The notes under the pieces: generated by a model
Told to the model about the DNA's origin: nothing
Seen by the model: the letters and a program-made list of their open reading frames with translations, nothing else
Database searches by the model: none
Program-made: the position numbers and the translations under genes
In this document: piece after piece, positions 1 to 64,000 of the stretch
How the letters are laid out: the number at the start of each line of letters is the position of its first letter
Numbering within the stretch: the first letter of the stretch is position 1
Assembly (NCBI GenBank): GCA_026874595.1
Contig: CM049322.1
Coordinates: 49,951,340-50,015,339, forward strand
Reading direction: 5' to 3'
Origin: Sipunculus nudus
Taxonomy: Eukaryota; Annelida; Sipuncula; Golfingiida; Sipunculidae
DNA: 64,000 nucleotides

Positions 1-261
1 CACAGAGTATTTGACTATAATAGTCATATTTGAGGTCACATGGCTATTCTGGTGAAAAATTGCTTGATATTATGTGACCATGTATAATTACACATTGTTT
101 GATCAGGTGAAAAGGGACATTACTCTTACTGGAGTTAATCAATCAAATGTTTTATTTTCACTCTTTGAATTCATGAAACCTTTCAATGATTATGTATGTG
201 GTGTTATTAATTATGTGGCGTGTTGTTCTTTGATTAGGTTCTGTCATATACATGAATGTCA

Positions 262-472
262 CGTGGCTTCATAGAGGTTATACTGGTATGCACAAAGTGC
301 AACATTTCTGGGGTTTGTCTTATAGTTGTCACAATGTGACGAAAAATCAACACATATAATGAGTGGTAGCCCCCGTTGTCTCCCTTGCACTTTTAGAAAA
401 TCAGTATACATATACATGTTCAATCAGTAATATATATGTATTGAAAATGCACCTTTCCTTTGGTACTTAAAT
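262..472. other. Only single-copy segment in the window (A1)
   Basis: These 211 bp, from cgtggcttcatagagg to just before ggtgaaaatgg, occur once in the window. They are absent from the B-to-A junctions of A2-A5 and from the A-to-B junctions. They lie between sequence shared with all B-to-A junctions (1-261) and sequence shared with all B starts (473-665), so they are most simply retained ancestral monomer sequence. No reading frame or RNA gene is evident. Confidence 0.85.
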
Positions 473-666
473 GGTGAAAATGGTCTTGATCATAAAAAAA
501 TTGATATAACTTATTACAAGATCAAACATTTCCTTATTCAGTTTCAATGATATTACATTTGAAATTTAAACAAGTGCTTGCCCCTGCTAATTTGATATCT
601 GATTTCCTACCAACTAGTGTTGTTATCAAGTTATATATATATATCGTCAGCCATCCAGTTTAGCCA
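473..666. repeat. Segment present in A1 and all B copies, lost from A2-A5
   Basis: Runs from ggtgaaaatggtcttgatc to gtttagcca. It matches the beginning of every B monomer (7211 onward, 21062 onward and so on) almost exactly, but is missing from A2-A5. It contains a short (TA)n run near 632-645. No other function is visible. Confidence 0.88.
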
Positions 667-837
667 GGCATATAACTTTGTTTTATTATAACCTGCATCT
701 CAAGAAACTCTAAGCAATCAGGCATATGTAGTGAGTGTATTGTGAAGTTTTTTTAGGATTAAATAACTGATGTAGACGAGGCTTACAGCGGGCTGTAATG
801 TACCTTCAGATTGCTTTTGTAAATTAATTTCAGGTGG

Positions 838-840
<3 letters not shown>

Positions 841-872
<32 letters not shown>
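841..872. repeat. TA-1 microsatellite, A1
   Basis: (TA)16. At this locus A2-A5 have only about 13-15 bp (14749-14761, 28628-28642, 42499-42512, 56387-56401) running into ttaatatatg. B copies are long: B1 7576-7623 (interrupted by ttttt), B2 21429-21502, B3 35312-35379, B4 49187-49252, B5 63070-63137. Confidence 0.95.
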
Positions 873-875
<3 letters not shown>

Positions 876-949
876 GATAAATATATGCTTTCTCATTATA
901 TACTTTCTTTGGTTTGATGATCCATATACATTCATTTTGGTTCTATATT

Positions 950-1430
950 AGCTGAGTGGTGGCAGCCATTTTGGGGTAAAATAGTCCTTTCACCAGAAAC
1001 CCCCAGTTTATTGTGTTATCTCTGTCCGAGTCAATATGATTCTCATCGACGTAGCAGCTGGTCTGACATCAAAGGATCTTTTAAATAAACAATAAAACAG
1101 ATTTATAATCTTAGCTGTCAGGAAAATGCTGAGCCTCTTTGGCCGGAGGTCTTTTCTTCATACAGCAGGAAATAATAGAATGCAGCAACTGTTCCTGTTG
1201 TGATCAAAACTGATTCCAGCAGGGCCTCTTGTATGGGAGATTGGAAACTAAGGTGGTTTTAGTTTCATCAGTTAGGTGGGAGAATGGTAGTTTGTGTCAT
1301 GGCAAAGAGCTGACATGTGCACTGCCTCAGAAGACTGTCAGATGCCAATATATAATAACAATGTCACGTCACACTAAAACACAAGGGTTAACAAGACAGA
1401 CTGTGGTCAGATAGATTATAATGTTACAAT
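950..1430. other. GC-richer block with lowest A-B divergence
   Basis: Runs from gctgagtggtggcagcc to gtggtcagatagatt. Comparing A2 with B2 over the equivalent 480 bp I count about five differences (about 1%), against about 6% in the block near 5.7-6.2 kb of the monomer. A 61-codon frame (1229-1414) lies here but is stopped in B1 by tctag, and A and B differ at the TKVV/TKKV codons. The block may be a constrained non-coding element or a recently converted stretch. Equivalents begin near 7700, 14830, 21580, 28715, 35457, 42585, 49330, 56470 and 63216. Confidence 0.5.
962..973 (-). promoter_or_regulatory. YY1-like site, A1
   Basis: Read on the minus strand this is CAAAATGGCTGC, close to the YY1 consensus AARATGGCNGC. 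One copy is at the same place in every monomer. Sequence match only; no binding evidence. Confidence 0.45.
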
Positions 1431-1856
1431 GGAGATAAGATTTTGGAGAATATAAATTCTCTGAATATTTTTGATAAAAATAGAACATGTAGCAAAATCT
1501 TCACACATTCATAAATATACATGAAAATATTAATATGTATGAGATTATAGTATTATATATGATAATAATAATAATGATGAACTTTTAGTCCCGGCAGTTC
1601 TGGAGAGGAGTTTAGATATTTGTGGCAGCCAGTTTTAATAGTTTAAATCAAGTGTCAAAATGGATTGTATGATATTTGTACATGAATGTTGAATATGCAT
1701 GCAGGGAACCTTCAGAGGTACACAGTCAGGATAAGAGCTACTTTATGTAAATAACATGTACAAATTGGTTATCATTTGCCGTGAACGACTATGGTCATTT
1801 TTTGTACACATCCATATGTAAAATAATGGCCTACCAGTGAAAGTTTGTCATCGATA

Positions 1857-7218: not shown

Positions 7219-7589
7219 TGGTCTTGATCATAAAAAAATTGATATAACTTATCACAAGATCAAACATTTCCTTATTCAGTTTCAATGATATTACATTTGA
7301 AATTTAAACAAGTGCTTGCCCCTGCTAATTTGATATCTGATTTCCTACCAACTAGTGTTGTTATCAAGTTATATATATATATCGTCAGCCATCCAGTTTA
7401 GCCAGGCATATAACTTTGTTTTATTATAACCTGCATCTCAAGAAACTCTAAGCAATCAGGCATATGTAGTGAGTGTATTGTGAAGTTTTTTAGGATTAAA
7501 TAACGGATGTAGACGAGGCTTACAGCGGGCTGTAATGTTCCTTCAGATTGCTTTTGTTAATTAATTTCAGGTGGCTATATATTTTTATA

Positions 7590-7623
<34 letters not shown>

Positions 7624-7712
7624 AATGATTAATATATGCTTTCTCATTATATACTTTCTTTGGTTTGATGATCCATATTCATTCATTTTGGTTCTATATT
7701 AGCTGAGTGGTG

Positions 7713-7724
7713 GCAGCCATTTTG
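7713..7724 (-). promoter_or_regulatory. YY1-like site, B1
   Basis: Same CAAAATGGCTGC word on the minus strand as in A1. Confidence 0.45.
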
Positions 7725-8603
7725 GGGTAAAATAGTCCTTTCACCAGAAACCCCCAGTTTATTGTGTTATCTCTGTCCGAGTCAATATGATTCTCATCGA
7801 CGTAGCAGCTGGTCTGACACCAAAAGATCTTTTAAATAAACAATAAAACAGATTTATAATCTTAGCTGTCAGGAAAATGCTGAGCCTCTTTGGCCGGAGG
7901 TCTTTTCTTCATACAGCAGGAAATAATAGAATGCAGCAACTGTTCCTGTTGTGATCAAAACTGATTCCAGCAGGGCCTCTTGTATGGGAGATTGGAAACT
8001 AAGAAGTTCTAGTTTCATCAGTTAGGTGGGAGAATGGTAGTTTGTGTCATGGCAAAGAGCTGACATGTGCACTGCCTCAGAAGACTGTCAGATGCCAATA
8101 TATAATAACAATGTCACGTCACACTAAAACACAAGGGTTAACAAGACAGACTGTGGTCAGATAGATTATAATGTTACAATAGAGATAAGATTTTGGAGAA
8201 TATAAATTCTCTGAATATTTTTGATAAAAATAGAACATGTAGCAAAATCTTCACACATTCATAAATATACATGAAAATATGAATATGTATGAGATTATAG
8301 TATTATATATGATAATAATAATAATGATGAACTTTTAGTCCCGGCAGTTCTGGAGAGGAGTTTAGATATTTATGGCAGCCAGTTTTAATAGTTTAAATCA
8401 AGTGTCAAAATGGATTGTATGATATTTGTACATGAATGTTGAATATGCATGCAGGGAACCTTCAGAGGTACACAGTCAGGATTAGAGCTACTTTATGTAA
8501 ATAACATGTACAAATTGGTTATCATTTGCCGTGAACGACTATGGTCATATTTTGTACACATCCATATGTAAAATAATGGTCTACCAGTGAAAGTTTGTTA
8601 TCG

Positions 8604-8606
<3 letters not shown>

Positions 8607-8652
<46 letters not shown>
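8607..8652. repeat. TA-2 microsatellite, B1
   Basis: 46 bp pure AT tract, at least twice the length of the A-class tract at the same locus. Confidence 0.95.
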
Positions 8653-8655
<3 letters not shown>

Positions 8656-8955
8656 GCCCTGAATTGTGCATGGTATTGATAAATAAATCCATTTAGGCAT
8701 GCTTGTAATAGTGACCAGTGCACAGTTTTGCCATTTTTTTTTTTGCAGAGCAGAAGGAATTGTATATAAATCTTGTAATTGAAATTTTGTACCATTGCCA
8801 GGCTGTGACCTTGGCTAGTTATAATAAAGCTTATTTCCTGTATATACTGGGTTTGTCTTCTAGTACGAGTTTGTGATATATTCTCATGTCAAGTTGCTGC
8901 ACTGGATGTCTTTTATGCGTCCAAAACATGTAAATATTTGTTTGATGAGTTAGAA

Positions 8956-8972
8956 CCCCCCCCCCCCCCCCC
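8956..8972. repeat. Poly-C tract, B1
   Basis: C17, the longest of the pure tracts at this locus. Confidence 0.95.
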
Positions 8973-10737
8973 AATAATACCAAATGCCATTCAAGAAGTC
9001 GGTGGAATTCACTCTCTACTAAACGTAAAAAATCTCGGAATCCGACATCATTTATATCTCTTCTGGCAAGCTTTTGGTTATCAACATCTAAGAAAGAAAG
9101 GGGGGCATGGGGAGAGGGACAGGAATTAGGTTTAAAGGATATTTAACTCTGTGGGTACCGGTGTTTGCATATACGTGCTGCGATTCTGTCAGAGAATTAG
9201 TTCTTTATAAATGCTATTTATGATTATCATTCATAATATTATTTAACTGTTCAGCATCAGTTGTCTGATGATCATCAATTTACACAAGAGTCGTAGGGTA
9301 AGATTTCCATATGCCTTAACATGCATATGATCACACATGGTATGGTGGTTAACTTAGAAGAAATAGCAAAGTAATAAGGAAATACATATTTACTTTAGTT
9401 GGGTTTAAACATTTATTTAAACATCTGTTGAAAGCAAGCGGTAAGGTTTTCCTATGTAAATCATTAGTTTACAGCGCAGCTACATGTATATCCCACCCAC
9501 CTATCACATCTATGTGTCGGCTACATCGTAATTCAAATCTTAAGTCGTTAACAGCATAATGGAAGTAACCTCCTAGTAAACCAGCATCATTTAAATATAC
9601 TTATCGTGATATTCTCACTTAAAGGTGTCTGGATAAATTACTAGCAGAAGAGATGCAATAGTATCCCTGGAGTCTTAAATCCGTTTTGAACGTGTCTCTG
9701 TTAAGAAAAATATCAACCGGCATGGTATATAGGTGGCAGCAGAAGACTTGTTCAATGGATAAAACTGTCAAAGATGTAAGGGCATACCTCCCAAATTTCA
9801 CAGCTGCTATGGAGAAAATCTCTCACTCTCTCATCAATAAAAGCCAATTTAAAATATCATGACTTATGGCAAGCTTTTAGTTATTTTGTACAAAGGAGAA
9901 AGACAGTGGGTCTTGGGGAGAGGTACAAGGGTAAGGTTTTCCCAAAAATTCCGTTCTGTATGTGCCACATTGTGGGTACAAATCTATGAGACAATAAGTG
10001 CTATATAAATACTATTTATTCTTATAATTATTATTTTTATTATTATATGCATTCATGCCCATATGCCTTGACAATAATATCACCAATGGCATGAGCGTTA
10101 ACTAAGAACATATAACACAGTATAATGAATAAAGACAAATATTTCCTTCAGTTGGTTTAAACATATTTATTTGAACAGGATTACATCTGTTCCAGGCTAG
10201 CTTTAAGATTTTCCTATGTAAAACATTCTTCGAGGGTTTTACAGCTACATGTATATCTCGCCCACCCATCACAGCAGACTTATCATGAAGATAAATATTC
10301 TTACCACCTCCTGTAATCTGCTTTCTCTTCAGTTCCCTGTCACGGGTAAAATGCCGTGGCAATTCAGGTCGAGAACAGTAATTACTATTGTGGCAGTAAT
10401 TTACCCATTAAAAGCATATCGGTGCACAAAGATAATCCAACATCATACAAATTTACTAATGCCTAACTGGCAGAACTGTCCATTGCCAGATAACAAATAT
10501 AGATTTCTCCCAACAGAGATACAATGATATACATAGAGTCATAAGCTTGACATTAACCCCTTAGAAATATCGCTCTATTATGTAATGTAGTTAGGTATCA
10601 ACTGAAATGATGTATACGTGGCACCATGAGACTTGTTCAAAAGATAAACTATCAGATACTAGTGTATAAGGGCTTACTAATTTTTACAATGATGCACAAA
10701 GCAGATCATGAGAAACGTGATAGTTTAAATTCTGTAG

Positions 10738-10751
10738 ACTGCAGGTGGCGC
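10738..10751 (+). promoter_or_regulatory. CTCF-like site, B1
   Basis: Identical 14-mer, 6777 bp from the A1 site. Confidence 0.5.
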
Positions 10752-11790
10752 TCCAAGTATGGTCCGGCAGAAAAAGCATCCAAAGCTGCTGGGCGCAAAG
10801 ATTGATGAAAAGACATGATCCTTAAATCGTCAATATGTAATGAATAAAGTTAAATTAAAACATGAAGTTGGCAAAACGGGACTTGTTGGGTGGAAAAAGC
10901 AGTCCTAGATCTTGGGTCATATACTAAATTTCAGAACATAACACTAAGTAGCCATTTGAGCAAAATGAGATTTTGTATATATTAAAATCAGCTGACAAGC
11001 CTTATACATGTATATGTTCAAGGTTACTCTCCACGTCATTGACCCAAATCTGAATTTGGTATATCTTTGTATATCTATATCTATGCTTGGCCTAAACAAC
11101 AACAAACAAAATAATCCAAAATCTTCAGCAATATCAAATTTCAGGGCTATCCTTCAAGACACTCTTTTGATATCTTATGAATAAATAATCATAAATGTAT
11201 TGTTTTCACTTGAACCATATCAATTCAAGGCTAAAGTCACTCTGATAGCTTACTGGTAGTAGGTTTTGTCCACTAAACCAATACCTGTGCACATTCATAG
11301 CGCTACAGTTTATGAGTCCTCAGGAATCAGTATTCACTGATCATAGTCAGGCCTTGCTGATAATAAATAAAGTGAATGTCACATTTGTGAAACCTTGACC
11401 TTGCAGATCTCAATTTCATGTTCATGGTAATTATTTGTGTATTTTGTCACAAAAAACAAATATCAAACATTATAAATTACCAGATAGATAGCAGAATTGG
11501 GACGATATACAGGTAACTCAACACATCAATATATCAGTATATATAATATATGATATGATTGTTGGCAGCTCTGACAAGGGTCAATATGATAAAGTATTGC
11601 TCTTGTGATAATGGATAAAACAATGGATAACTGAAGTCACGCTTTATATCTACATCCCATGGAAATTTACAAACGCTTGCCAGAGTGTATCAAGATATTT
11701 GAAGGTAATAAGTTGCAGCTGATTCATGTAACCTTTTCACTGGATTCCCAAAGAGAATTCATCACCCAGTCTTTCATTTTTTTACCACAG

Positions 11791-11836
<46 letters not shown>

Positions 11837-11984
11837 AAAATGTAACGGTTCCAAATAGAAATACAAATAGGGTAACCTTTTATTATTATTATTATTGTTA
11901 TTATTGTCTTCATTATTTTACCTTATTATCGTTAAACACATTAAACTTTACACTTATCTCGGTCAAATTAAAAATCTAACTGGC

Positions 11985-13440
11985 GACGCAGATTGAATAA
12001 TTATTTTGTCTCATATATTCACACAGCGACGAGCCCACATTGTTTTAAATTTAGGTATAAATTCGCAAGATTATTAATTAATTCCGTCTATTAAAAGTGG
12101 AAAAATAATATGAAAAATATTGTAAACGGTTTAATGTTTTTTTTTTTCAACTATCACAGTATCAGTGCATAAATGAGCCATAAAATTCTCTCCGAAAATT
12201 CTCCTTGACATCAGGCTTTCCGTGGATTCTCCGACTATTAGGTCAGGCAGACGCATTATTACTTCTATATATTATCATTGTAAATAAAGCGGTGTTTTTT
12301 AGTTCCAGCAAATGTGCTTGAGAGACTAACATTAACTTATCAAAAAATGCCGCGAAAGTGGCACCTCATGTTTCTCATTTGGGAACTGAGAGCCTATATT
12401 TATCTAGCAGATGCCAGCTACTCCTTTTGCAAACTGTGAAAAAGCACAATCTGTTGGTACCATTTTTCTCTCTGCAGAAAAAAAAATGTTGGTGCATTTT
12501 GAAAACGCTAAAATCCTAAAAAAAATGAGCCACATATTAATGGCCCTTTAATTAGTTTGAAGTTGACACCCTTCAGCCCGGACATGTCATATTACAATTG
12601 ATCCGGTGGACCCTACACAAATTGCCCAACTGCTCTCTTACTCACACCTACTTTAGACAGACCCGGCACCTGGTGAGCGACAATGAGAGTAATCTGAACA
12701 ATATCCCTGGAACATGCGTAAGTGTAACTAGGCGGTCATAGCTATGGGTATTAAGGAAATTGCGTCTGGTAGATATTTCATTTCAAAACTCAAATTGAAA
12801 TCCCTAACCCTATCTATGTAGATCAACCCATGAAAATGTCTTGAAAATGAATTGGAAATGTTGATCTTTTGGAAGCGTATGAACCCTTGAACAATTTATT
12901 GTGGTTGACTTAAAAAGTTTCTGAACCATGTGTTATTTTCCCTCTGTATCAATGTGAGATGTTGACACTCCGGGCTACCAAAAGTAAGGCTAACATTTCA
13001 CCATCCAGGGTACTTAGGATTCCACTTTTAAGTTTTTTTTTTAATACATATTTTTGGGTCATGCTTTGGATTCTTAATGATACCATGAAGTATACATCAT
13101 CCCATGGTATACAACAAAGTCATATTAAGTCTTCAAATAATTTCCCTCGCAGCCTTTCATAATTTGTGCTTTACATACATGTAGATTCTGTCAATCGCAT
13201 AATGGGGACAGGATAATGGAGATGAGTTTCAGTGGTTTAGGTACTCTTGAGTCATTAAAGGGGAAAGTGGCCTTGCCTACGCTTTTGTGAAAGAATGCAT
13301 GTTAGATGTCTATTTTTATATGCACTGGAAAACGAAACAACACTAAAACACAACAGAGCATCACAACTATTTTGGTATGAGTGAATGATTGAATATTGCA
13401 TAGAAATATGTACACGTTCAACAGAGCTAATGTGTTTACA
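11985..13440. other. Fast-diverging block, B form
   Basis: B counterpart of 5200-6632. It contains B-only sequence at about 12203-12220 (ttgacatcaggcttt) and about 13139-13193. No coding potential was recognised. Confidence 0.7.
13139..13193. other. B-specific segment of about 55 bp
   Basis: Between cttcaaat and aatcgcata all B copies have about 55 bp (including cctcgcagcc and acatacatgtag) that A copies lack (A1 near 6382-6387). Whether it is an insertion in B or a deletion in A cannot be told from this window. No terminal repeats were seen. Confidence 0.8.
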
Positions 13441-13443
13441 TAG

Positions 13444-13445
<2 letters not shown>

Positions 13446-13505
<60 letters not shown>

Positions 13506-13528
13506 TAAAAAATATATATATATATATT
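13446..13528. repeat. TA-4 compound microsatellite, B1
   Basis: About 50 bp of TA, then (AAAT)n-like aaataaataaataaaaa, then a second TA run of about 17 bp. The compound form is specific to B. Main TA runs in other B copies: B2 27333-27374, B3 41199-41244, B4 55072-55133. Confidence 0.95.
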
Positions 13529-13989
13529 CTGAAAATAACATAAATATTTATGTAGAGATTTTATGGCGTAAGACTGAGTGTGGTGTAAATATGGGTGGAA
13601 GTTTCATGAGGTGACAAGACTTTCAGGAGTATCAACAGTTTACAGTCAGGGCTGGAATCCATATTGTCTGTGAATTATCAATGTATTTATGTGATCCGTA
13701 TAGTCGGATTCGCACATTTTACCGATCCTCCAGTCTGTTAGGGTCCATGTATAACATTGAATTAAACACAGGTATTATACAGAGCAAAATGTGAAATAGC
13801 CCTACATTGTAACCTTAATACTGCAACAATGTATAGTTGTACATCATAAATAATTATATGAATGTAATATGACGGGGTATGACCATGGTTCAGACTATAG
13901 TTAAATTAACCATACATAATTATTATAGCAATATATCCCTTAATCAGCACATGGTGATCTATTGTGGGGCATCCTGTTTGATCAACCAT

Positions 13990-14460
13990 CTTGCGAACAT
14001 AATGAGTCAGCGCCATGTGACCAAATGGCCTGATCATGTGATCATTCCCCCATGTTAATTCAGGTATCACCTAATTGTGAGACTATAACGGTGGCGCATG
14101 ACCATATGACCTTATCATGTGATTATTTGATCCTATTGCTTCACTCAAGATATGACTATATATGACTATAATAGTTGTACGATCATGTGACCAGATCTTA
14201 TGATGGTCTGACCATAATATTCTATAACCACTTGAGTGTATGACTGTATTAGTCAAGTATGATCATTAAATCCTGATCTTATGATCATTTGGCCATAACA
14301 AACAAAGTTCACAGAGTATTTGACTATAATAGTCATATTTGAGGTCACATGGCTATTCTTGTGAAAAATTGCTTGATATTATGTGACCATGTATAATTAC
14401 ACATTGTTTGATCAGGTGAAAAGGGACATTACTCTTACTGGAGTTAATCAATCAAATGTT
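13990..14460. repeat. CATGTGA-rich degenerate repeat zone at B-to-A junction
   Basis: CATGTGA words lie at about 14013, 14034, 14116 and 14184. Related words include a GTCACATG near 14344, an ATGTGACCAT at 14381 and gaccatatgacc near 14100. Gactataatag and cttatgat words also recur. The spacing is irregular, so this is either a decayed short-period repeat or an E-box/M-box cluster. Equivalent zones are at about 27869-28339, 41739-42209 and 55628-56098; part is also at 1-140 and 7140-7190. Confidence 0.6.
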
Positions 14461-14569
14461 TTATTTTCACTCTTTGAATTCATGATACCTTTCAATGATT
14501 ATGTATCAATGTGGTGTTATTAATTATGTGGCGTGTTGTTCTTTGATTAGGTTCTGTCATATACATGAA

Positions 14570-14577
14570 TGTCAGGC
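14570..14577. other. Deletion scar A (405 bp relative to A1)
   Basis: In A2 the sequence jumps from gaatgtca directly to ggcatatac, whereas A1 has 405 extra bases (262-666) between them. The bases ca occur at both edges in A1, a 2-bp microhomology. The same join is at 28452 (A3), 42322 (A4) and 56211 (A5), so the deletion predates amplification of these dimers. Confidence 0.88.
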
Positions 14578-14844
14578 ATATACCTTTGTTTTATTATAAC
14601 CTGCATCTCAAGAAACTCCAAGCAATCAGGCATATGTAGTGAGTGTATTGTGAAGTTTTTTTAGGATTAAATAACTGATGTAGACGAGGCTTACAGCGGG
14701 CTGTAATGTACCTTCAGATTGATTTTGTAAATTAATTTCAGGTAGCTTTATATATATATATTAATATATGCTTTCTCATTATATACTTTCTTTGGTTTGA
14801 TGATCCATATTCATTCATTTTGGTTCTATATTAGCTGAGTGGTG

Positions 14845-14855
14845 GCAGCCATTTT
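14845..14855 (-). promoter_or_regulatory. YY1-like site, A2
   Basis: AAAATGGCTGC core kept. A2-A5 have one more T and one fewer G downstream (atttttggg), outside the core. Confidence 0.45.
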
Positions 14856-17823: not shown

Positions 17824-17837
17824 ACTGCAGGTGGCGC
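17824..17837 (+). promoter_or_regulatory. CTCF-like site, A2
   Basis: Identical 14-mer, 7086 bp after the B1 site. Confidence 0.5.

Positions 17838-18878: not shown

Positions 18879-18920
<42 letters not shown>

Positions 18921-20492: not shown

Positions 20493-20533
<41 letters not shown>

Positions 20534-21425: not shown

Positions 21426-21428
<3 letters not shown>

Positions 21429-21502
<74 letters not shown>
21429..21502. repeat. TA-1 microsatellite, B2 (long)
   Basis: About 74 bp of TA with a single TACATA interruption near 21481, just after the gtggcttta border. It is the longest TA tract in the window. Confidence 0.95.
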
Positions 21503-22483: not shown

Positions 22484-22486
<3 letters not shown>

Positions 22487-42595: not shown

Positions 42596-42606
42596 GCAGC
42601 CATTTT
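42596..42606 (-). promoter_or_regulatory. YY1-like site, A4
   Basis: Identical to the A2 site. Confidence 0.45.
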
Positions 42607-45573: not shown

Positions 45574-45587
45574 ACTGCAGGTGGCGC
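45574..45587 (+). promoter_or_regulatory. CTCF-like site, A4
   Basis: Identical 14-mer, 7081 bp after the B3 site. Confidence 0.5.

Positions 45588-46628: not shown

Positions 46629-46672
<44 letters not shown>

Positions 46673-48244: not shown

Positions 48245-48291
<47 letters not shown>

Positions 48292-49183: not shown

Positions 49184-49186
<3 letters not shown>

Positions 49187-49252
<66 letters not shown>
49187..49252. repeat. TA-1 microsatellite, B4
   Basis: About 66 bp of TA with the TACATA interruption near 49231. Confidence 0.95.
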
Positions 49253-49341
49253 AATGATTAATATATGCTTTCTCATTATATACTTTCTTTGGTTTGATGA
49301 TCCATATTCATTCATTTTGGTTCTATATTAGCTGAGTGGTG

Positions 49342-49353
49342 GCAGCCATTTTG
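49342..49353 (-). promoter_or_regulatory. YY1-like site, B4
   Basis: Identical to the B1 site. Confidence 0.45.
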
Positions 49354-50233
49354 GGGTAAAATAGTCCTTTCACCAGAAACCCCCAGTTTATTGTGTTATC
49401 TCTGTCCGAGTCAATATGATTCTCATCGACGTAGCAGCTGGTCTGACACCAAAAGATCTTTTAAATAAACAATAAAACAGATTTATAATCTTAGCTGTCA
49501 GGAAAATGCTGAGCCTCTTTGGCCGGAGGTCTTTTCTTCATACAGCAGGAAATAATAGAATGCAGCAACTGTTCCTGTTGTGATCAAAACTGATTCCAGC
49601 AGGGCCTCTTGTATGGGAGATTGGAAACTAAGAAGGTTTTAGTTTCATCAGTTAGGTGGGAGAATGGTAGTTTGTGTCATGGCAAAGAGCTGACATGTGC
49701 ACTGCCTCAGAAGACTGTCAGATGCCAATATATAATAACAATGTCACGTCACACTAAAACACAAGGGTTAACAAGACAGACTGTGGTCAGATAGATTATA
49801 ATGTTACAATAGAGATAAGATTTTGGAGAATATAAATTCTCTGAATATTTTTGATAAAAATAGAACATGTAGCAAAATCTTCACACATTCATAAATATAC
49901 ATGAAAATATGAATATGTATGAGATTAAAGTATTATATATGATAATAATAATAATGATGAACTTTTAGTCCCGGCAGTTCTGGAGAGGAGTTTAGATATT
50001 TATGGCAGCCAGTTTTAATAGTTTAAATCAAGTGTCAAAATGGATTGTATGATATTTGTACATGAATGTTGAATATGCATGCAGGGAACCTTCAGAGGTA
50101 CACAGTCAGGATTAGAGCTACTTTATGTAAATAACATGTACAAATTGGTTATCATTTGCCGTGAACGACTATGGTCATATTTTGTACACATCCATATGTA
50201 AAATAATGGTCTACCAGTGAAAGTTTGTTATCG

Positions 50234-50236
<3 letters not shown>

Positions 50237-50284
<48 letters not shown>
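50237..50284. repeat. TA-2 microsatellite, B4
   Basis: 48 bp pure AT tract. Confidence 0.95.
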
Positions 50285-50287
<3 letters not shown>

Positions 50288-50587
50288 GCCCTGAATTGTG
50301 CATGGTATTGATAAATAAATCCATTTAGGCATGCTTGTAATAGTGACCAGTGCACAGTTTTGCCATTTTTTTTTTTGCAGAGCGGAAGGAATTGTATATA
50401 AATCTTGTAATTGAAATTTTGTACCATTGCCAGGCTGTGACCTTGGCTAGTTATAATAAAGGTTATTTCCTGTATATACTGGGTTTGTCTTCTAGTACGA
50501 GTTTGTGATATATTCTCATGTCAAGTTGCTGCACTGGATGTCTTTTATGCGTCCAAAACATGTAAATATTTGTTTGATGAGTTAGAA

Positions 50588-50598
50588 CCCCCCCCCCC
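50588..50598. repeat. Poly-C tract, B4
   Basis: C11, the shortest pure tract in a B copy. Confidence 0.95.
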
Positions 50599-52363
50599 AA
50601 TAATACCAAATGCCATTCAAGAAGTCGGTGAAATTCACTCTCTACTAAACGTAAAAAATCTCGGAATCCGACATCATTTATATCTCTTCTGGCAAGCTTT
50701 TGGTTATCAACATCTAAGAAAGAAAGGGTAGCATGGGGAGAGGGACAGGAATTAGGTTTAAAGGATATTTAACTCTGTGGGTACCGGTGTTTGCATATAC
50801 GTGCTGCGATTCTGTCAGAGAATTAGTTCTTTATAAATGCTATTTATGATTATCATTCATAATATTATTTAACTGTTCAGCATCAGTTGTCTGATGATCA
50901 TCAATTTACACAAGAGTCGTAGGGTAAGATTTCCATATGCCTTAACATGCATATGATCACACATGGTATGGTGGTTAACTTAGAAGAAATAGCAAAGTAA
51001 TAAGGAAATACATATTTACTTTAGTTGGGTTTAAACATTTATTTAAACATCTGTTGAAAGCAAGCGGTAAGGTTTTCCTATGTAAATCATTAGTTTACAG
51101 CGCAGCTACATGTATATCCCACCCACCTATCACATCTATGTGTCGGCTACATCGTAATTCAAATCTTAAGTCGTTAACAGCATAATGGAAGTAACCTCCT
51201 AGTAAACCAGCATCATTTAAATATACTTATCGTGATATTCTCACTTAAAGGTGTCTGGATAAATTACTAGCAGAAGAGATGCAATAGTATCCCTGGAGTC
51301 TTAAATCCGTTTTGAACGTGTCTCTGTTAAGAAAAATATCAACCGGCATGGTATATAGGTGGCAGCAGAAGACTTGTTCAATGGATAAAACTGTCAAAGA
51401 TGTAAGGGCATACCTCCCAAATTTCACAGCTGCTATGGAGAAAATCTCTCACTCTCTCATCAATAAAAGCCAATTTAAAATATCATGACTTATGGCAAGC
51501 TTTTAGTTATTTTGTACAAAGGAGAAAGACAGTGGGTCTTGGGGAGAGGTACAAGGGTAAGGTTTTCCCAAAAATTCCGTTCTGTATGTGCCACATTGTG
51601 GGTACAAATCTATGAGACAATAAGTGCTATATAAATACTATTTATTCTTATAATTATTATTTTTATTATTATATGCATTCATGCCCATATGCCTTGACAA
51701 TAATATCACCAATGGCATGAGCGTTAACTAAGAACATATAACACAGTATAATGAATAAAGACAAATATTTCCTTCAGTTGGTTTAAACATATTTATTTGA
51801 ACAGGATTACATCTGTTCCAGGCTAGCTTTAAGATTTTCCTATGTAAAACATTCTTCGAGGGTTTTACAGCTACATGTATATCTCGCCCACCCATCACAG
51901 CAGACTTATCATGAAGATAAATATTCTTACCACCTCCTGTAATCTGCTTTCTCTTCAGTTCCCTGTCACGGGTAAAATGCCGTGGCAATTCAGGTCGAGA
52001 ACAGTAATTACTATTGTGGCAGTAATTTACCCATTAAAAGCATATCGGTGCACAAAGATAATCCAACATCATACAAATTTACTAATGCCTAACTGGCAGA
52101 ACTGTCCATTGCCAGATAACAAATATAGATTTCTCCCAACAGAGATACAATGATATACATAGAGTCATAAGCTTGACATTAACCCCTTAGAAATATCGCT
52201 CTATTATGTAATGTAGTTAGGTATCAACTGAAATGATGTATACGTGGCACCATGAGACTTGTTCAAAAGATAAACTATCAGATACTAGTGTATAAGGGCT
52301 TACTAATTTTTACAATGATGCACAAAGCAGATCATGAGAAACGTGATAGTTTAAATTCTGTAG

Positions 52364-52377
52364 ACTGCAGGTGGCGC
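52364..52377 (+). promoter_or_regulatory. CTCF-like site, B4
   Basis: Identical 14-mer, 6790 bp after the A4 site. Confidence 0.5.
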
Positions 52378-53416
52378 TCCAAGTATGGTCCGGCAGAAAA
52401 AGCATCCAAAGCTGCTGGGCGCAAAGATTGATGAAAAGACATGATCCTTAAATCGTCAATATGTAATGAATAAAGTTAAATTAAAACATGAAGTTGGCAA
52501 AACGGGACTTGTTGGGTGGAAAAAGCAGTCCTAGATCTTGGGTCATATACTAAATTTCAGAACATAACACTAAGTAGCCATTTGAGCAAAATGAGATTTT
52601 GTATATATTAAAATCAGCTGACAAGCCTTATACATGTATATGTTCAAGGTTACTCTCCACGTCATTGACCCAAATCTGAATTTGGTATATCTTTGTATAT
52701 CTATATCTATGCTTGGCCTAAACAACAACAAACAAAATAATCCAAAATCTTCAGCAATATCAAATTTCAGGGCTATCCTTCAAGACACTCTTTTGATATC
52801 TTATGAATAAATAATCATAAATGTATTGTTTTCACTTGAACCATATCAATTCAAGGCTAAAGTCACTCTGATAGCTTACTGGTAGTAGGTTTTGTCCACT
52901 AAACCAATACCTGTGCACATTCATAGCGCTACAGTTTATGAGTCCTCAGGAATCAGTATTCACTGATCATAGTCAGGCCTTGCTGATAATAAATAAAGTG
53001 AATGTCACATTTGTGAAACCTTGACCTTGCAGATCTCAATTTCATGTTCATGGTAATTATTTGTGTATTTTGTCACAAAAAACAAATATCAAACATTATA
53101 AATTACCAGATAGATAGCAGAATTGGGACGATATACAGGTAACTCAACACATCAATATATCAGTATATATAATATATGATATGATTGTTGGCAGCTCTGA
53201 CAAGGGTCAATATGATAAAGTATTGCTCTTGTGATAATGGATAAAACAATGGATAACTGAAGTCACGCTTTATATCTACATCCCATGGAAATTTACAAAC
53301 GCTTGCCAGAGTGTATCAAGATATTTGAAGGTAATAAGTTGCAGCTGATTCATGTAACCTTTTCACTGGATTCCCAAAGAGAATTCATCACCCAGTCTTT
53401 CATTTTTTTACCACAG

Positions 53417-53462
<46 letters not shown>

Positions 53463-55069
53463 AAAATGTAACGGTTCCTAATAGAAATACAAATAGGGTA
53501 ACCTTTTATTATTATTATTATTGTTATTATTGTCTTCATTATTTTACCTTATTATCGTTAAACACATTAAACTTTACACTTATCTCGGTCAAATTAAAAA
53601 TCTAACTGGCGACGCAGATTGAATAATTATTTTGTCTCATATATTCACACAGCGACGAGCCCACATTGTTTTAAATTTAGGTATAAATTCGCAAGATTAT
53701 TAATTAATTCCGTCTATTAAAAGTGGAAAAATAATATGAAAAATATTGTAAACGGTTTAATGTTTTTTTTTTTCAACTATCACAGTATCAGTGCATAAAT
53801 GAGCCATAAAATTCTCTCCGAAAATTCTCCTTGACATCAGGCTTTCCGTGGATTCTCCGACTATTAGGTCAGGCAGACGCATTATTACTTCTATATATTA
53901 TCATTGTAAATAAAGCGGTGTTTTTTAGTTCCAGCAAATGTGCTTGAGAGACTAACATTAACTTATCAAAAAATGCCGCGAAAGTGGCACCTCATGTTTC
54001 TCATTTGGGAACTGAGAGCCTATATTTATCTAGCAGATGCCAGCTACTCCTTTTGCAAACTGTGAAAAAGCACAATCTGTTGGTACCATTTTTCTCTCTG
54101 CAGAAAAAAAAATGTTGGTGCATTTTGAAAACGCTAAAATCCTAAAAAAAATGAGCCACATATTAATGGCCCTTTAATTAGTTTGAAGTTGACACCCTTC
54201 AGCCCGGACATGTCATATTACAATTGATCCGGTGGACCCTACACAAATTGCCCAACTGCTCTCTTACTCACACCTACTTTAGACAGACCCGGCACCTGGT
54301 GAGCGACAATGAGAGTAATCTGAACAATATCCCTGGAACATGCGTAAGTGTAACTAGGCGGTCATAGCTATGGGTATTAAGGAAATTGCGTCTGGTAGAT
54401 ATTTCATTTCAAAACTCAAATTGAAATCCCTAACCCTATCTATGTAGATCAACCCATGAAAATGTCTTGAAAATGAATTGGAAATGTTGATCTTTTGGAA
54501 GCGTATGAACCCTTGAACAATTTACTGTGGTTGACTTAAAAAGTTTCTGAACCATGTGTTATTTTCCCTCTGTATCAATGTGAGATGTTGACACTCCGGG
54601 CTACCAAAAGTAAGGCTAACATTTCACCATCCAGGGTACTTAGGATTCCACTTTTAAGTTTTTTTTTTAATACATATTTTTGGGTCATGCTTTGGATTCT
54701 TAATGATACCATGAAGTATACATCATCCCATGGTATACAACAAAGTCATATTAAGTCTTCAAATAATTTCCCTCGCAGCCTTTCATAATTTGTGCTTTAC
54801 ATACATGTAGATTCTGTCAATCGCATAATGGGGACAGGATAATGGAGATGAGTTTCAGTGGTTTAGGTACTCTTGAGTCATTAAAGGGGAAAGTGGCCTT
54901 GCCTACGCTTTTGTGAAAGAATGCATGTTAGATGTCTATTTTTATATGCACTGGAAAACGAAACAACACTAAAACACAACAGAGCATCACAACTATTTTG
55001 GTATGAGTGAATGATTGAATATTGCATAGAAATATGTACACGTTCAACAGAGCTAATGTGTTTACATAG

Positions 55070-55071
<2 letters not shown>

Positions 55072-55143
<72 letters not shown>

Positions 55144-55166
55144 TAAAAAATATATATATATATATT
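55072..55166. repeat. TA-4 compound microsatellite, B4
   Basis: 62 bp main TA run, then the AAAT linker and second TA run. Longest at this locus. Confidence 0.95.
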
Positions 55167-55627
55167 CTGAAAATAACATAAATATTTATGTAGAGATTTT
55201 ATGGCGTAAGACTGAGTGTGGTGTAAATATGGGTGGAAGTTTCATGAGGTGACAAGACTTTCAGGAGTATCAACAGTTTACAGTCAGGGCTGGAATCCAT
55301 ATTGTCTGTGAATTATCAATGTATTTATGTGATCCGTATAGTCGGATTCGCACATTTTACCGATCCTCCAGTCTGTTAGGGTCCATGTATAACATTGAAT
55401 TAAACACAGGTATTATACAGAGCAAAATGTGAAATAGCCCTACATTGTAACCTTAATACTGCAACAATGTATAGTTGTACATCATAAATAATTATATGAA
55501 TGTAATATGACGGGGTATGACCATGGTTCAGACTATAGTTAAATTAACCATACATAATTATTATAGCAATATATCCCTTAATCAGCACATGGTGATCTAT
55601 TGTGGGGCATCCTGTTTGATCAACCAT

Positions 55628-56098
55628 CTTGCGAACATAATGAGTCAGCGCCATGTGACCAAATGGCCTGATCATGTGATCATTCCCCCATGTTAATTCA
55701 GGTATCACCTAATTGTGAGACTATAACGGTGGCGCATGACCATATGACCTTATCATGTGATTATTTGATCCTATTGCTTCACTCAAGATATGACTATATA
55801 TGACTATAATAGTTGTACGATCATGTGACCAGATCTTATGATGGTCTGACTATAATATTCTATAACCACTTGAGTGTATGACTGTATTAGTCAAGTATGA
55901 TCATTAAATCCTGATCTTATGATCATTTGGCCATAACAAACAAAGTTCACAGAGTATTTGACTATAATAGTCATATTTGAGGTCACATGGCTATTCTTGT
56001 GAAAAATTGCTTGATATTATGTGACCATGTATAATTACACATTGTTTGATCAGGTGAAAAGGGACATTACTCTTACTGGAGTTAATCAATCAAATGTT
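55628..56098. repeat. CATGTGA-rich zone, B4-to-A5 junction
   Basis: Copy of the junction zone with the same motif order as at B2-to-A3. Confidence 0.6.
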
Positions 56099-56484
56099 TT
56101 ATTTTCACTCTTTGAATTCATGATACCTTTCAATGATTATGTATCAATGTGGTGTTATTAATTATGTGGCGTGTTGTTCTTTGATTAGGTTCTGTCATAT
56201 ACATGAATGTCAGGCATATACCTTTGTTTTATTATAACCTGCATCTCAAGAAACTCCAAGCAATCAGGCATATGTAGTGAGTGTATTGTGAAGTTTTTTT
56301 AGGATTAAATAACTGATGTAGACGAGGCTTACAGCGGGCTGTAATGTACCTTCAGATTGATTTTGTAAATTAATTTCAGGTAGCTTTATATATATATATA
56401 TTAATATATGCTTTCTCATTATATACTTTCTTTGGTTTGATGATCCATATTCATTCATTTTGGTTCTATATTAGCTGAGTGGTG

Positions 56485-56495
56485 GCAGCCATTTT
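56485..56495 (-). promoter_or_regulatory. YY1-like site, A5
   Basis: Identical to the A2 site. Confidence 0.45.
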
Positions 56496-59462
56496 TGGGT
56501 AAAATAGTCCTTTCACCAGAAACCCCCAGTTTATTGTGTTATCTCTGTCCGAGTCAATATGATTCTCATCGACGTAGCAGCTGGTCTGACACCAAAGGAT
56601 CTTTTAAATAAACAATAAAAACAGATTTATAATCTTAGCTGTCAGGAAAATGCTGAGCCTCTTTGGCCGGAGGTCTTTTCTTCATACAGCAGGAAATAAT
56701 AGAATGCAGCAACTGTTCCTGTTGTGATCAAAACTGATTCCAGCAGGGCCTCTTGTATGGGAGATTGGAAACTAAGGTGGTTTTAGTTTCATCAGTTAGG
56801 TGGGAGAATGGTAGTTTGTGTCATGGCAAAGAGCTGACATGTGCACTGCCTCAGAAGACTGTCAGATGCCAATATATAATAACAATGTCACGTCACACTA
56901 AAACACAAGGGTTAACAAGACAGACTGTGGTCAGATAGATTATAATGTTACAATGGAGATAAGATTTTGGAGAATATAAATTCTCTGAATATTTTTGATA
57001 AAAATAGAACATGTAGCAAAATCTTCACACATTCATCAATATACATGAAAATATGAATATGTATGAGATTATAGTATTATACATGATAATAATAATAATG
57101 ATGAACTTTTAGTCCCGGCAGTTCTGGAGAGGAGTTTAGATATTCATGGCAGCCAGTTTTAATAGTTTAAATCAAGTGTCAAAATGGATTGTATGATATT
57201 TGTACATGAATGTTGAATATGCATGCAGGGAACCTTCAGAGGTACACAGTCAGGATTAGAGCTACTTTATGTAAATAACATGTACAAATTGGTTATCATT
57301 TGCCGTGAACGACTATGGTCATATTTTGTACACATCCATATGTAAAATAATGGTCTACCAGTGAAAGTTTGTTATCGATAATATATATATATATATATGC
57401 AGCCCTGAATTGTGCATGGTATTGATAAATAAATCCATTTAGGCATGCTTGTAATAGTGACCAGTGCACAGTTTTGCCATTTTTTTTTTTTGCAGAGCAG
57501 AAGGAATTGTATATAAATCTTGTAATTGAAATCTTGTACCAATGCCAGGCTGTGACCTTGGCTAGTTATAATAAAGCTTATTTCCTGTATATACTGGGTT
57601 GGTCTTCTAGTACAAGTTTGTGATATATTCTCATGTCAAGTTGCTGCACTGGATGTCTTTTATGCGTCCAAAACATGTAAACATTTGTTTGATGAGTTAG
57701 AACCCCTCCCTCCAATAATACCAAATGCCATTCAAGAAGTCGGTGGAATTCACTCTCTACTAAACGTAAAAAATCTCGGAATCCGACATCATTTATATCT
57801 CTTCTGGCAAGCTTTTGGTTATCAACATCTAAGAAAGAAAGGGGGCATGGGGAGAGGGACAGGAATTAGGTTTAAAGGATATTTATCTGTGGGTACCGGT
57901 GTTTGCATATACGTGCTGCGATTCTGTCAGAGAATTAGTTCTTTATAAATGCTATTCATGATTATCATTCATAATATTATTTAATTGTTCAGCATCAGTT
58001 GTCTGATGATCATCAACTTACACAAGAGTCGTAGGGTAAGATTTCCATATGCCTTAACATGCATATGATCACACATGGTATGGTGGTTAACTTAGAAGAA
58101 ATAGCAAAGTAATAAGGAAATACAAATTTACTTTAGTTGAGTTTAAACATTTATTTTAACATCTGTTGAAAGCAAGCGGTAAGGTTTTACTATGTAAATC
58201 ATTAGTTTACAGCGCAGCTACATGTATATCCCACCCACCTATCACATCTATGTGTCGGCTACATCGTAATTCAAATCTAAAGTCGTTAACAGCATAATGG
58301 AAGTAACCTCCTAGTAAACCAGCATCATTTGAATATACTTATCGTGATATTCTCACTTAAAGGTGTCTGGATAAATTACTAGCAGAAGAGATGCAATAGT
58401 ATCCCTGGAGTCTTAAATCCGTTTTGAACGTGTCTCAACCGGCATGGTATATAGGTGGCAGCAGAAGACTTGTTCAATGGATAAAACTGTCAAAGATGTA
58501 AGGGCATACCTCCCAAATTTCACAGCTGCCCTTGGAGAAAATCTCTCACTCTCTCACCAATAAAAGCCAATTTAAAATATCATGACTTATGGCAAGCTTT
58601 TAGTTATTTTGTACAAAGGAGAAAGACAGTGGGTCTTGGGGAGAGGTACAAGGGTAAGGTTTCCCATAAATTCCGTTCTGTATGTGCCACATTGTGGGTA
58701 CAAATCTATGAGACAATAAGTGCTATATAAATACTATTTATTCTTATAATTATTATTTTTATTATTATATGCATTCATGCCCATATGCCTTGACATTAAT
58801 AATATCACCAATGGCATGAGCGTTAACTAAGAACATATAACACAGTATAATGAATAAAGACAAATATTTACTTCAGTTGGTTTAAACATATTTATTTGAA
58901 CAGGATAACATCTGTTCCAGCCTAGCTTTAAGATTTTCCTATGTAAAACATTCTTCGAGGGTTTTACAGCTACATGTATATCTCGCCCACCCATCACAGC
59001 AGGCTTATCATGAAGATAAATATTCTTACCACCTCATGTAATCTGCTTTCTCTTCAGTTCCCTGTCACGGGTAAAATGCCGTGGCAATTCAGGTCGACAA
59101 TAGTAATTACTATTGTGGCAGTAATTTACCCATTAAAAGCATATCAGTGCACAAAGATAATCCCACATCATACAAATTTACTAATGCCTAACTGGCAGAA
59201 CTGTCCATTGCCAGATAACAAATATGGATTTCTCCCAACAGAGATACAATGATATACATAGAGTCATAAGCTTGACATTAACCCCTTAGAAATATGGCTC
59301 TATTATTTAATGTAGTTAGTTATCAACTGAAATGATGTATACTTGGCACCATGAGACTTGTTCAAAAGATAAACTATCAGATACTAGTGTATAAGGGCTT
59401 ACTAATTTATACAATGATGCACAAAGCAGATCATGAGAAACGTGATAGTTTAAATTCTGTAG

Positions 59463-59476
59463 ACTGCAGGTGGCGC
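59463..59476 (+). promoter_or_regulatory. CTCF-like site, A5
   Basis: Identical 14-mer, 7099 bp after the B4 site. Confidence 0.5.
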
Positions 59477-60517
59477 TCCAAGTATGGTCCGGCAGAAAAA
59501 GCATCCAAAGCTGCTGGGCGCAAAGATTGATGAAAAGACATGATCCTTAAATCGTCAATATGTAATGAATAAAGTTAAATTAAAACATGAAGTTGGCAAA
59601 ACGGGACTTGTTGGGTGGAAAAAGCAGTCCTAGATCTTGGGTCATATACTAAATTTCAGAACATAACACTAAGTAGCCATTTGAGCAAAATGAGATTTTT
59701 TATATATTAAAATCAGCTGACAAGCCTTATACATGTATATGTTCAAGGTTACTCTCCACATCATAGACCCAAATCTGAATTTGGTATATCTTTGTATATC
59801 TATATCTATGCTTGGCCTAAACAACAACAAACAAAATAATCCAAAATCTTCAGCAATATCAAATTTCAGGGCTATCCTTCAAGACACTCTTTTGATATCT
59901 CATGTATAAATAATCATAAATGTATGGTTTTCACTTGAACCATATCAATTCAAGGCTAAAGTCACTCTCATAGCTTACTGGTAGTAGGTTTTGTCCACTA
60001 AACCAATACCTGTGCACATTCATAGAGCTACAGTTTATGAGTCCTCAGGAATCAGTATTCACTGATCATAGTCAGGCCTTGCTGATAAATAAATAAAGTG
60101 AATGTCACATTTGTGAAACCTTGACCTTGCAGATCTCAGTTTCATGTACATGGTAGTTATTAGTGTGTTTTGTCACAAAAAAACAAATATCAAACATTAT
60201 AAATTACCAGATAGATAGCAGAACTGGGACGATATACAGGTAAATCAACACATCAATACATCAGTATATATAATATATGATATGATTGTTGGCAGCTCTG
60301 ACAAGGGTCAATATGATAAAGGATTGCTCTTGTGATAATGGATAAAACAATGGATGACTGAAGTCACGCTTGATATCTACATCCCATGGGAATTTACAAA
60401 CCCTTGACAGAGTGTATCAAGATATTTGAAGGTAATAAGTTGCACCTGATTCATGTAACCTTTTTACTGGATTCCCAAAGAGAATTCATCACCCAATCTT
60501 TCATTATTTTACCACAG

Positions 60518-60561
<44 letters not shown>

Positions 60562-62133
60562 TGTAACGGTTCCAAATAGAAATACAAATAGGGTAACCTA
60601 TTATTATTATTATAATAATTATTATTATTATTATCTTCATTATTATTATTATCTTCATTATTTTTCCTTTTGACCGTTAAACACATTTAACTTTACACTT
60701 ATCTCGGTCAAATTAAAAATCTAACTGGCGACGCAGATTGAATAATTATTTAGTCTCATATATTCACACAGCGAGGGGCCCATATTGTTTTAAATTTAGC
60801 TATAAATGCGCAAGATTATTTATTAATTCCGTCTATTAAAAATGGAAAAATAATATGAATAATATTGTAAACGGTTTAATTTTTTTTTTTTCAACAATCA
60901 CAGTATCAGTGCATAAATGAGCCATAAAAATCTCTCCGAAAATTCTCCCGTGGATTCTCCGACTATAAATTCAGGCAGACGCATTATTACTTCTATATGT
61001 TATCATTGTAAATAAAGCGGTGTTTTTCATATACATATCTGTCCAATTCTAACAGTTCCAACAAATGTGCTTGAGAGACTGACATTAACTTATCAAAAAA
61101 TGCCGCGAAAGTGGCGCCTCATGTATCTCATTTGGGAACTAAGAGCCTATAGTTATCTAGCAGATGCCAGCTTCTCCTTGGGGCAATGGTGAAAAAGCAC
61201 AATCTGTTGGTACCATTTTTCTCTCTGCAGAAAAAAAAATGTTGGTGCATGATGAAAACGCTAAAATCCTATATTATCAAAAAAATAGAGCCACATATTA
61301 ATGGCCCTTTAATTAGTTTGAGGTTGACTCTTCAGCCCGGACCTGTCATATTACATTTGATCCGGTGGACCCTACACAAATTGCCCAACTGCTCTGTTAC
61401 TCGCACCTACTTTAGACAGACACGGCAGTTGGTGAGCGACAATGAGAGTAATCTGAACAATTGCCCTGGAACATGCGTAAGTTTAACTAGGCGTCATAGC
61501 TGTTGGGTATTAAGGAAGTTGCGTCTGGTTAATATTTCATTTCAAACCTCAAATTGAAATCCCTAACCCTATCTATGTAGATCAACCCGTGAAAATGTCT
61601 TCAAGTTGAAAATGAATTGGAAATGTTGATCTCTTGGAAGGGTATGAACCCTGAAACAATATACTGTGGTTGACTTAAAAATTTTCTGAACCCTGTGTTA
61701 TTTTCCCTCTGTATCAATGTGAGATGTTGACACTCTGGGCTACAAAAAGTAAGGCTAACATATCACCACCCTGAGTACTTAGGATTCCACTTTTAAGTGT
61801 TTTTAATACGTTTTTGGGTCATGCTTTGGATACTTGTTGATACCGTGAAGTATACATCATCCCATGATATACACCAAAACCTTCAGATAATCGCATGATA
61901 GGGACAGGATAAGGAAATGAGTTTCAATGGTTTAGGTACTCTTGAGTCAATAAAGGGACAAGTGGCCTTACCTACGCTTTTGTAAAAGAATGCATGATAC
62001 ATGTCTATTTTATATCCAATGGAAAATGATAAACCACTAAAACACAACAGAGCATCACAACTATTTTGGTATGAGTGAATGATTGAATACTGCATAGAAA
62101 TATGCACACGTTCAACAGAACTAATGTGTTAAC

Positions 62134-62174
<41 letters not shown>

Positions 62175-63066
62175 GAAAATAACATAAATATTTATGGCGT
62201 AAGACTGAGTGTGGTGTATATATGGGTGAAAGTTTCTTGAGGTTACAAGACTTTCAGGAGTATCAACAGTTTACAGTCAGGGCTGGAGTCCATATTGTCT
62301 ATGAATTATAAATGTATTTATGTGATCTGTATAGTCGGATTCGCACATTATACCGATCCTCCAGTCTGTTAGGGTCCATGTATAACATTGAATAAAACAC
62401 AGGTATTATACAGAGCAAAATATGAAATAGCCCTATATTGTTACCTTAATACTGCAACTATGTATAGTTGTACATCCAATATAATTATATGAATAAAATA
62501 TGACAGGGTTTGGCCATGGTTCAGACTGTAGTTATATAAACCATACATGATTATTATAGCAATATATCCCTTAATCAGCACATGGTGATCTATTGTGGGG
62601 CATCCTGTTTGATCAACCATCTTGCGAACAGAAAGAGTCAGCGTCATGTGATCAAATGACCTGATCATGTGATCATTCCCCCATATAATTCAAGTATCGC
62701 CTGGTGAAAATGGTCTTGATCATAAAAAAATTGATATAACTTATCACAAGATCAAACATTTCCTTATTCAGTTTCAATGATATTACATTTGAAATTTAAA
62801 CAAGTGCTTGCCCCTGCTAATTTGATATCTGATTTCCTACCAACTAGTGTTGTTATCAAGTTATATATATATATCGTCAGCCATCCAGTTTAGCCAGGCA
62901 TATAACTTTGTTTTATTATAACCTGCATCTCAAGAAACTCTAAGCAATCAGGCATATGTAGTGAGTGTATTGTGAAGTTTTTTAGGATTAAATAACGGAT
63001 GTAGACGAGGCTTACAGCGGGCTGTAATGTTCCTTCAGATTGCTTTTGTTAATTAATTTCAGGTGG

Positions 63067-63069
<3 letters not shown>

Positions 63070-63137
<68 letters not shown>
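63070..63137. repeat. TA-1 microsatellite, B5 (uninterrupted)
   Basis: About 68 bp of pure TA. The TACATA interruption present in B1-B4 is missing, so the C has been lost by slippage or substitution. Confidence 0.95.
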
Positions 63138-63140
<3 letters not shown>

Positions 63141-63226
63141 GATTAATATATGCTTTCTCATTATATACTTTCTTTGGTTTGATGATCCATATTCATTCAT
63201 TTTGGTTCTATATTAGCTGAGTGGTG

Positions 63227-63238
63227 GCAGCCATTTTG
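63227..63238 (-). promoter_or_regulatory. YY1-like site, B5
   Basis: Identical to the B1 site. Confidence 0.45.
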
Positions 63239-64000
63239 GGGTAAAATAGTCCTTTCACCAGAAACCCCCAGTTTATTGTGTTATCTCTGTCCGAGTCAAT
63301 ATGATTCTCATCGACGTAGCAGCTGGTCTGACACCAAAAGATCTTTTAAATAAACAATAAAACAGATTTATAATCTTAGCTGTCAGGAAAATGCTGAGCC
63401 TCTTTGGCCGGAGGTCTTTTCTTCATACAGCAGGAAATAATAGAATGCAGCAACTGTTCCTGTTGTGATCAAAACTGATTCCAGCAGGGCCTCTTGTATG
63501 GGAGATTGGAAACTAAGAAGGTTTTAGTTTCATCAGTTAGGTGGGAGAATGGTAGTTTGTGTCATGGCAAAGAGCTGACATGTGCACTGCCTCAGAAGAC
63601 TGTCAGATGCCAATATATAATAACAATGTCACGTCACACTAAAACACAAGGGTTAACAAGACAGACTGTGGTCAGATAGATTATAATGTTACAATAGAGA
63701 TAAGATTTTGGAGAATATAAATTCTCTGAATATTTTTGATAAAAATAGAACATGTAGCAAAATCTTCACACATTCATAAATATACATGAAAATATGAATA
63801 TGTATGAGATTAAAGTATTATATATGATAATAATAATAATGATGAACTTTTAGTCCCGGCAGTTCTGGAGAGGAGTTTAGATATTTATGGCAGCCAGTTT
63901 TAATAGTTTAAATCAAGTGTCAAAATGGATTGTATGATATTTGTACATGAATGTTGAATATGCATGCAGGGAACCTTCAGAGGTACACAGTCAGGATTAG

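Follow-up and report, generated by a model that had tools for sequence, protein, structure and literature searches.

A probable locus-specific, non-coding macrosatellite behind CBL in Sipunculus nudus with higher-order A-B dimers

A stretch of 64,000 nucleotides from chromosome 17 (C17) of Sipunculus nudus (C17:49951340-50015339, referred to as the window) forms the middle of a long tandem array of ~7-kb units next to the gene CBL. We think that this array is most likely a locus-specific, apparently non-coding macrosatellite that has grown neutrally by unequal crossing-over and is homogenized mainly in the more alike part of its units. No function is needed to explain it, and its copy number is probably polymorphic. 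The original prediction, made from the letters of the window, had proposed a gene-free macrosatellite with an A-B dimer of about 13.88 kb as higher-order unit, present about 4.6 times. Both the dimer and this count within the window are borne out by the 24-mer spacings and unit identities given below, and the gene-free character is supported as far as it was tested.

Within the window, A and B units alternate head-to-tail with a dimer period of 13.86-13.89 kb. When 24-mers shared within the window are compared, the top spacings are 13,889, 13,871 and 13,879 nucleotides, and their multiples lie near 27.7 and 41.6 kb. Five A units measure 6,681-6,738 bp and four full B units 7,170-7,199 bp, while a fifth B is represented by its first 1,070 bp; part of the size differences is accounted for by (AT)n tracts, the lengths of which vary from unit to unit. 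The GC content is ~34%. The higher-order structure is evident from the identities: the A units share 99.00-99.99% with each other and the full B units 99.80-99.97% (99.52-99.91% against the cut fifth B), whereas full A and B units are only 94.34-94.47% identical.

When the window is extended by 100 kb in both directions (264 kb in total), the array can be followed over ~173 kb (C17:49,913,915-50,086,944), and all units have the same orientation. It consists of 24 units, the last of which is truncated, and one older fragment at its left end. According to their right parts, the units belong to four families, A to D, in the order C C C C D (A B)x6 D D A B B D A', in which the truncated last unit (A') was assigned by tree. 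The 4.6 dimers are hence a product of the window borders, and the dimer block really comprises six A-B copies over 83.3 kb, embedded in an array that also contains C and D units. No substitution separates U14 from U16 or U15 from U17, and these units cluster together in the tree, as is predicted by stepwise growth. Three stretches of the window (positions 1-3000, 2900-5100 and 18400-21300, thus covering 1-5100 and 18400-21300) were searched against the genome (1,426,538,692 bases in 153 contigs, 61,128,531 of them in chromosome 17), and long matches were found only at C17:49.91-50.09 Mb, while matches in other places were short or confined to a ~440-bp piece; this search scores the best candidates only, and absence elsewhere is not proof. 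The ~440-bp piece occurs at at least 14 places on 10 chromosomes among the best 40 of 479 candidates scored.

The units are mosaics, the left and right parts of which have been exchanged among families, in many cases at about 3.5 kb. The left module (unit positions 1-3500, 24 units) has a mean divergence of 1.29% and a maximum of 2.06%, as compared to 4.62% and 7.72% in the right module (unit positions 3600-6390, 23 full units). Clustering resulted in nine left haplotypes at a cut of 0.6% and four right families at a cut of 1.5%. The left haplotype L6 is found on right parts of families A and D (the latter in U18 and U23) and L5 on those of C and D (U05), while the A right parts bear three different left haplotypes, L6, L9 and L1. 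The exchange of parts is also seen in substitution counts to the left and right of unit position 3560, which amount to 4 and 163 for U08-U18, 9 and 128 for U03-U05, 65 and 9 for U08-U20, and 48 and 4 for U18-U19. The first A unit in the window (U06) differs from the next A (U08) by 63 substitutions up to this position and by a single one thereafter, so that the near identity claimed for the repeat copies does not apply to this unit. The pairs counted were picked after the divergence profile had been seen, and their P values are therefore descriptive. Indels of at least 10 bp between family representatives number 0-4 per pair in the left part and 2-7 in the right part, where they reach up to ~2 kb. 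The sequenced S. nudus individual has a heterozygosity of 2.03% (PMC10212961). The left divergence is thus about equal to the difference between two alleles in one worm, which is expected under ongoing homogenization.

In a scenario that would connect these observations, the region behind CBL was first duplicated in tandem, and the array was then enlarged through unequal crossing-over. As the left parts are alike and carry fewer indels, exchanges may have fallen mainly in the left 3.5 kb, which would have shuffled left parts among right parts and kept them homogeneous. The right parts, in which substitutions and indels of up to ~2 kb would hinder exchange, would meanwhile have diverged into the families A to D. 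Later unequal exchanges in a two-unit register could then have multiplied one A-B pair, giving rise to the dimer block. Several points weigh against this scenario. One of the six pairs used for the substitution counts, U18-U05, is without a left/right contrast (47 and 30). The switch in the B-U22 comparison lies near unit position 1.5-2.0 kb and not at 3.5 kb, and therefore the breakpoints are not all shared. The B-D pair has fewer indels of at least 10 bp in the right part (2) than in the left part (4), and constraint on the left part could be an alternative cause of its lower divergence. Finally, a single genome stands behind the scenario, and the change in copy number that it implies is putative.

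The array is a well resolved non-vertebrate example of a kilobase-scale higher-order array adjoining a conserved gene, and it illustrates a way in which arrays of this type may expand and be rearranged. Since the two parts of its units have recombined differently in the past, it can serve to test the idea that the likeness of sequences sets where exchanges in an array fall. In this worm, which is of economic use, the array may also make the region behind CBL a variable locus.

Several other explanations have to be weighed against neutral growth. The dimer block could have been inflated by the assembler, since the read N50 is about the length of one dimer (HiFi reads at 72.63x with an N50 of 14,008 bp, combined with Hi-C; scaffold N50 80,869,746; PMC10212961) and there is no substitution between dimers five and six. 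When the lengths of (AT)n tracts and homopolymers are left out of account, these two dimers are identical over 17,372 letters, so that one of the six dimers is set apart by microsatellite length only and the count is uncertain by about one. However, no exact repeat in the array is longer than 4,872 bp, the next longest run with such lengths ignored is 8,774 letters, the 264 kb contain no N, the flanks on the two sides are unlike, and there are four unit families. Judged from the assembled sequence, the array is probably not an assembly artefact, and we consider such an origin very unlikely. It is likewise quite unlikely that profile libraries overlook a short or rapidly evolving gene, or a repeated exon, in each unit. 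What would fit a tandem gene or exon array is that 14 rows of open reading frames (ORFs) of 50-101 codons stay open in the representatives of all four families (these are A- and B-based counts and the places partly overlap), and that in a 51-codon minus-strand ORF nine of 19 changes are silent where 24% are expected (P 0.021). This P value is, however, the lowest of 21, and in the 21 ORF rows that remain open in two or all of the three other families, silent changes make up 58 of 256 (23%), as compared to 22-26% expected per ORF without selection. None of the 547 array ORFs of at least 60 amino acids (counted stop-to-stop) reaches 150 amino acids, and the ORF density per kb equals that of the flanks (3.16 in the array, 3.21 to the left, 3.19 to the right). 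A six-frame Pfam scan of one A-B dimer (about positions 14200-28400, in 18 translations) yielded no family at an expectation value (E) of up to 1. A PDB sequence search with one of the six frames of positions 14201-19000 gave no match, and across the whole window there was no Rfam family at gathering score and no transfer RNA (tRNA) in a tRNA scan under the bacterial code. An open conserved coding sequence per unit is accordingly not seen, and the UBA exon of CBL sits before the array. The ratio of observed to expected CpG, considered as an indicator of gene-body methylation, is 0.446 in the array, which is nearer to that of the right intergenic flank (0.453) than to that of the CBL body (0.347), and it is 0.324 in the left flank. 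Six weak Rfam matches to mir-297 and mir-1277 at E up to 1 in one dimer were rejected, as they lie at or beside (AT)n and far under the gathering scores.

A functional alternative would be a boundary array of the DXZ4 kind, in which a same-facing CTCF site in every unit would insulate CBL from the next gene. DXZ4 (PMC3218863) resembles the array in being locus-specific, with a kilobase unit that is not obviously protein coding, but its unit is 3 kb, it is X-linked and CTCF binding has been reported for it, whereas the S. nudus unit is 7 kb and contains CTCF-like words predicted from sequence; the S. nudus genome paper states that no XY or ZW chromosome was seen (PMC10212961). With a CTCF matrix (maximum score 33.2), each unit has one such site, all on the same strand, and the score is 19.4 in 18 of the 24 units. 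Only 1% of 400 order-1 random sequences modelled on one A unit reach this score, and a cluster of five further sites (scores 13.6-21.4, same strand; C17:50,091,342-50,092,006, L026:6003-6667) starts 4.4 kb right of the array. Real flanks, however, reach the score often, namely in 12% of the overlapping 6.7-kb windows on the left (112 windows) and in 30% of those on the right (44 windows, including the cluster), and a single orientation of the copies is already given by tandem growth. The score drops to 15.4 in two units and to 11.8 in four, and there is no sign of constraint, with two variable positions in the 19 bp where 1.0 is expected locally. The word is hence intact in 18 of 24 units and its variability is not under the local rate, and we regard an insulating CTCF array as improbable. 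Even somewhat more doubtful would be the wider proposal of an invertebrate DXZ4 counterpart, that is, a copy-number-variable chromatin boundary in which 24 same-facing CTCF-like sites (18 intact) and the cluster of five would part CBL from the next domain. The last four sites of the cluster are spaced by 122-133 bp and look like a diverged repeat. The term satellite may further suggest a centromere, and centromeres typically have higher-order repeats, but the three stretches searched have no long match on other chromosomes and point to a single locus that immediately follows a conserved gene, with CBL only 1.5 kb away. This speaks against a centromeric satellite of chromosome 17, which we consider highly improbable. 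Neutral growth by unequal crossing-over is thus the reading that we prefer.

Arrays of this kind are already known, as gene-free kilobase-scale higher-order repeats have been described in humans (PMC2588610), and the unusual scale that had been claimed for the dimer stands only in part. The survey in that paper lists 96 additional human arrays whose units exceed 2 kb, among them 53 with genes or repeated exons, and it also covers gene-free long terminal repeat (LTR) arrays with a higher-order unit of six ~3.5-kb monomers, which corresponds to ~21 kb by multiplication. These LTR megasatellites at 13q11, 18p11 and 21q11 share with the S. nudus array the kilobase monomers, the absence of genes, the higher-order units and unequal crossing-over. 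They differ in that their 3.5-kb monomers are MaLR retrotransposons, arranged six per unit and present on many chromosomes, whereas the S. nudus array is built of 7-kb DNA mostly absent elsewhere in the genome, with two monomers per unit at one locus. Macrosatellites with units of 2.4-6.6 kb have also been described (PMC3018141), and among these PRR20 is similar in forming a single tandem array of a 6.6-kb unit, but contains the PRR20 gene in each unit. The human tRNA repeat at 1q23.3 (PMC4041453) is comparable in its 7.3-kb unit and 9-43 copies, but it is GC-rich, carries tRNA genes and binds CTCF. NBPF 3mer higher-order repeats (PMC9584774) also consist of higher-order kilobase monomers, but these are 1.6 kb long and part of genes. 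Among the papers listed for annelid satellites nothing nearer was found, and of those listed for tandem repeats in S. nudus, the genome paper is by title the only one about this genome.

Table 1. Units and other features of the window, in window positions
Feature	Position	Strand	Basis
End of unit U05 (family D right part)	1..700	+	unit comparison, haplotype clustering
Unit A1 (U06), a recombinant of an A right part with left haplotype L9	701..7438	+	
Unit B1 (U07)	7439..14608	+	unit comparison
Unit A2 (U08), reference unit	14609..21289	+	unit comparison
Left module of reference unit, low divergence between families	14609..18126	+	divergence profile
CTCF-like 19-bp word	17821..17839; also 3958, 10735, 24623, 31700, 38490, 45571, 52361, 59460	+	CTCF matrix
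Breakpoint zone common to several unit pairs, unit positions 3518-3608	18126..18216	.	divergence profile, substitution counts
Right module of reference unit, family-specific	18216..20998	+	divergence profile
(AT)n microsatellite, length unit-dependent, one of several per unit	18881..18914	.	sequence
~440-bp stretch, old interspersed repeat, copies of 73-75% identity on other chromosomes	19330..19769	.	genome search
Unit B2 (U09)	21290..28487	+	unit comparison
Unit A3 (U10)	28488..35172	+	unit comparison
Unit B3 (U11)	35173..42357	+	unit comparison
Unit A4 (U12)	42358..49047	+	unit comparison
Unit B4 (U13)	49048..56246	+	unit comparison
Unit A5 (U14)	56247..62930	+	unit comparison
Start of unit B5 (U15), cut by window end	62931..64000	+	unit comparison

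The exons of CBL lie on the plus strand left of the array, and the match to the UBA part, obtained with human CBL as query, ends at C17:49,912,410. Three A[AT]TAAA words are found between this match and the array. On the other side, 21.5 kb right of the array, there is an open frame of 475 amino acids with a BTB_2 match (E 2.7e-20; C17:50,108,404-50,109,828, L028), which was found in a Pfam scan of the plus strand of four 10-kb flank stretches (L014, L026-L028). As the UBA match ends before the array and the BTB_2 frame lies beyond it, the array is probably intergenic and not located within a CBL intron. The 475-residue frame also shows weak DUSP and ubiquitin-like matches, which are under the Pfam cut-offs. 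To the left of CBL, there are minus-strand open frames of a short repeat in which HPPCVN and PVSMW recur (L010, C17:49,869,138-49,869,832).

In a comparison of the array edges, a 91-bp stretch behind CBL (C17:49,913,079-49,913,169) was found to recur with 97.8% identity at 49,914,659-49,914,749, in the first array fragment only. A 1.9-kb insert with a transposon-like look sits in the right parts of the D units U18 (L021:4577-6462) and U19 (L022 from ~4006); its ends read AGCTCAGCTGA / TCAGCTGAGC, and a shortened form of it is present in U23.

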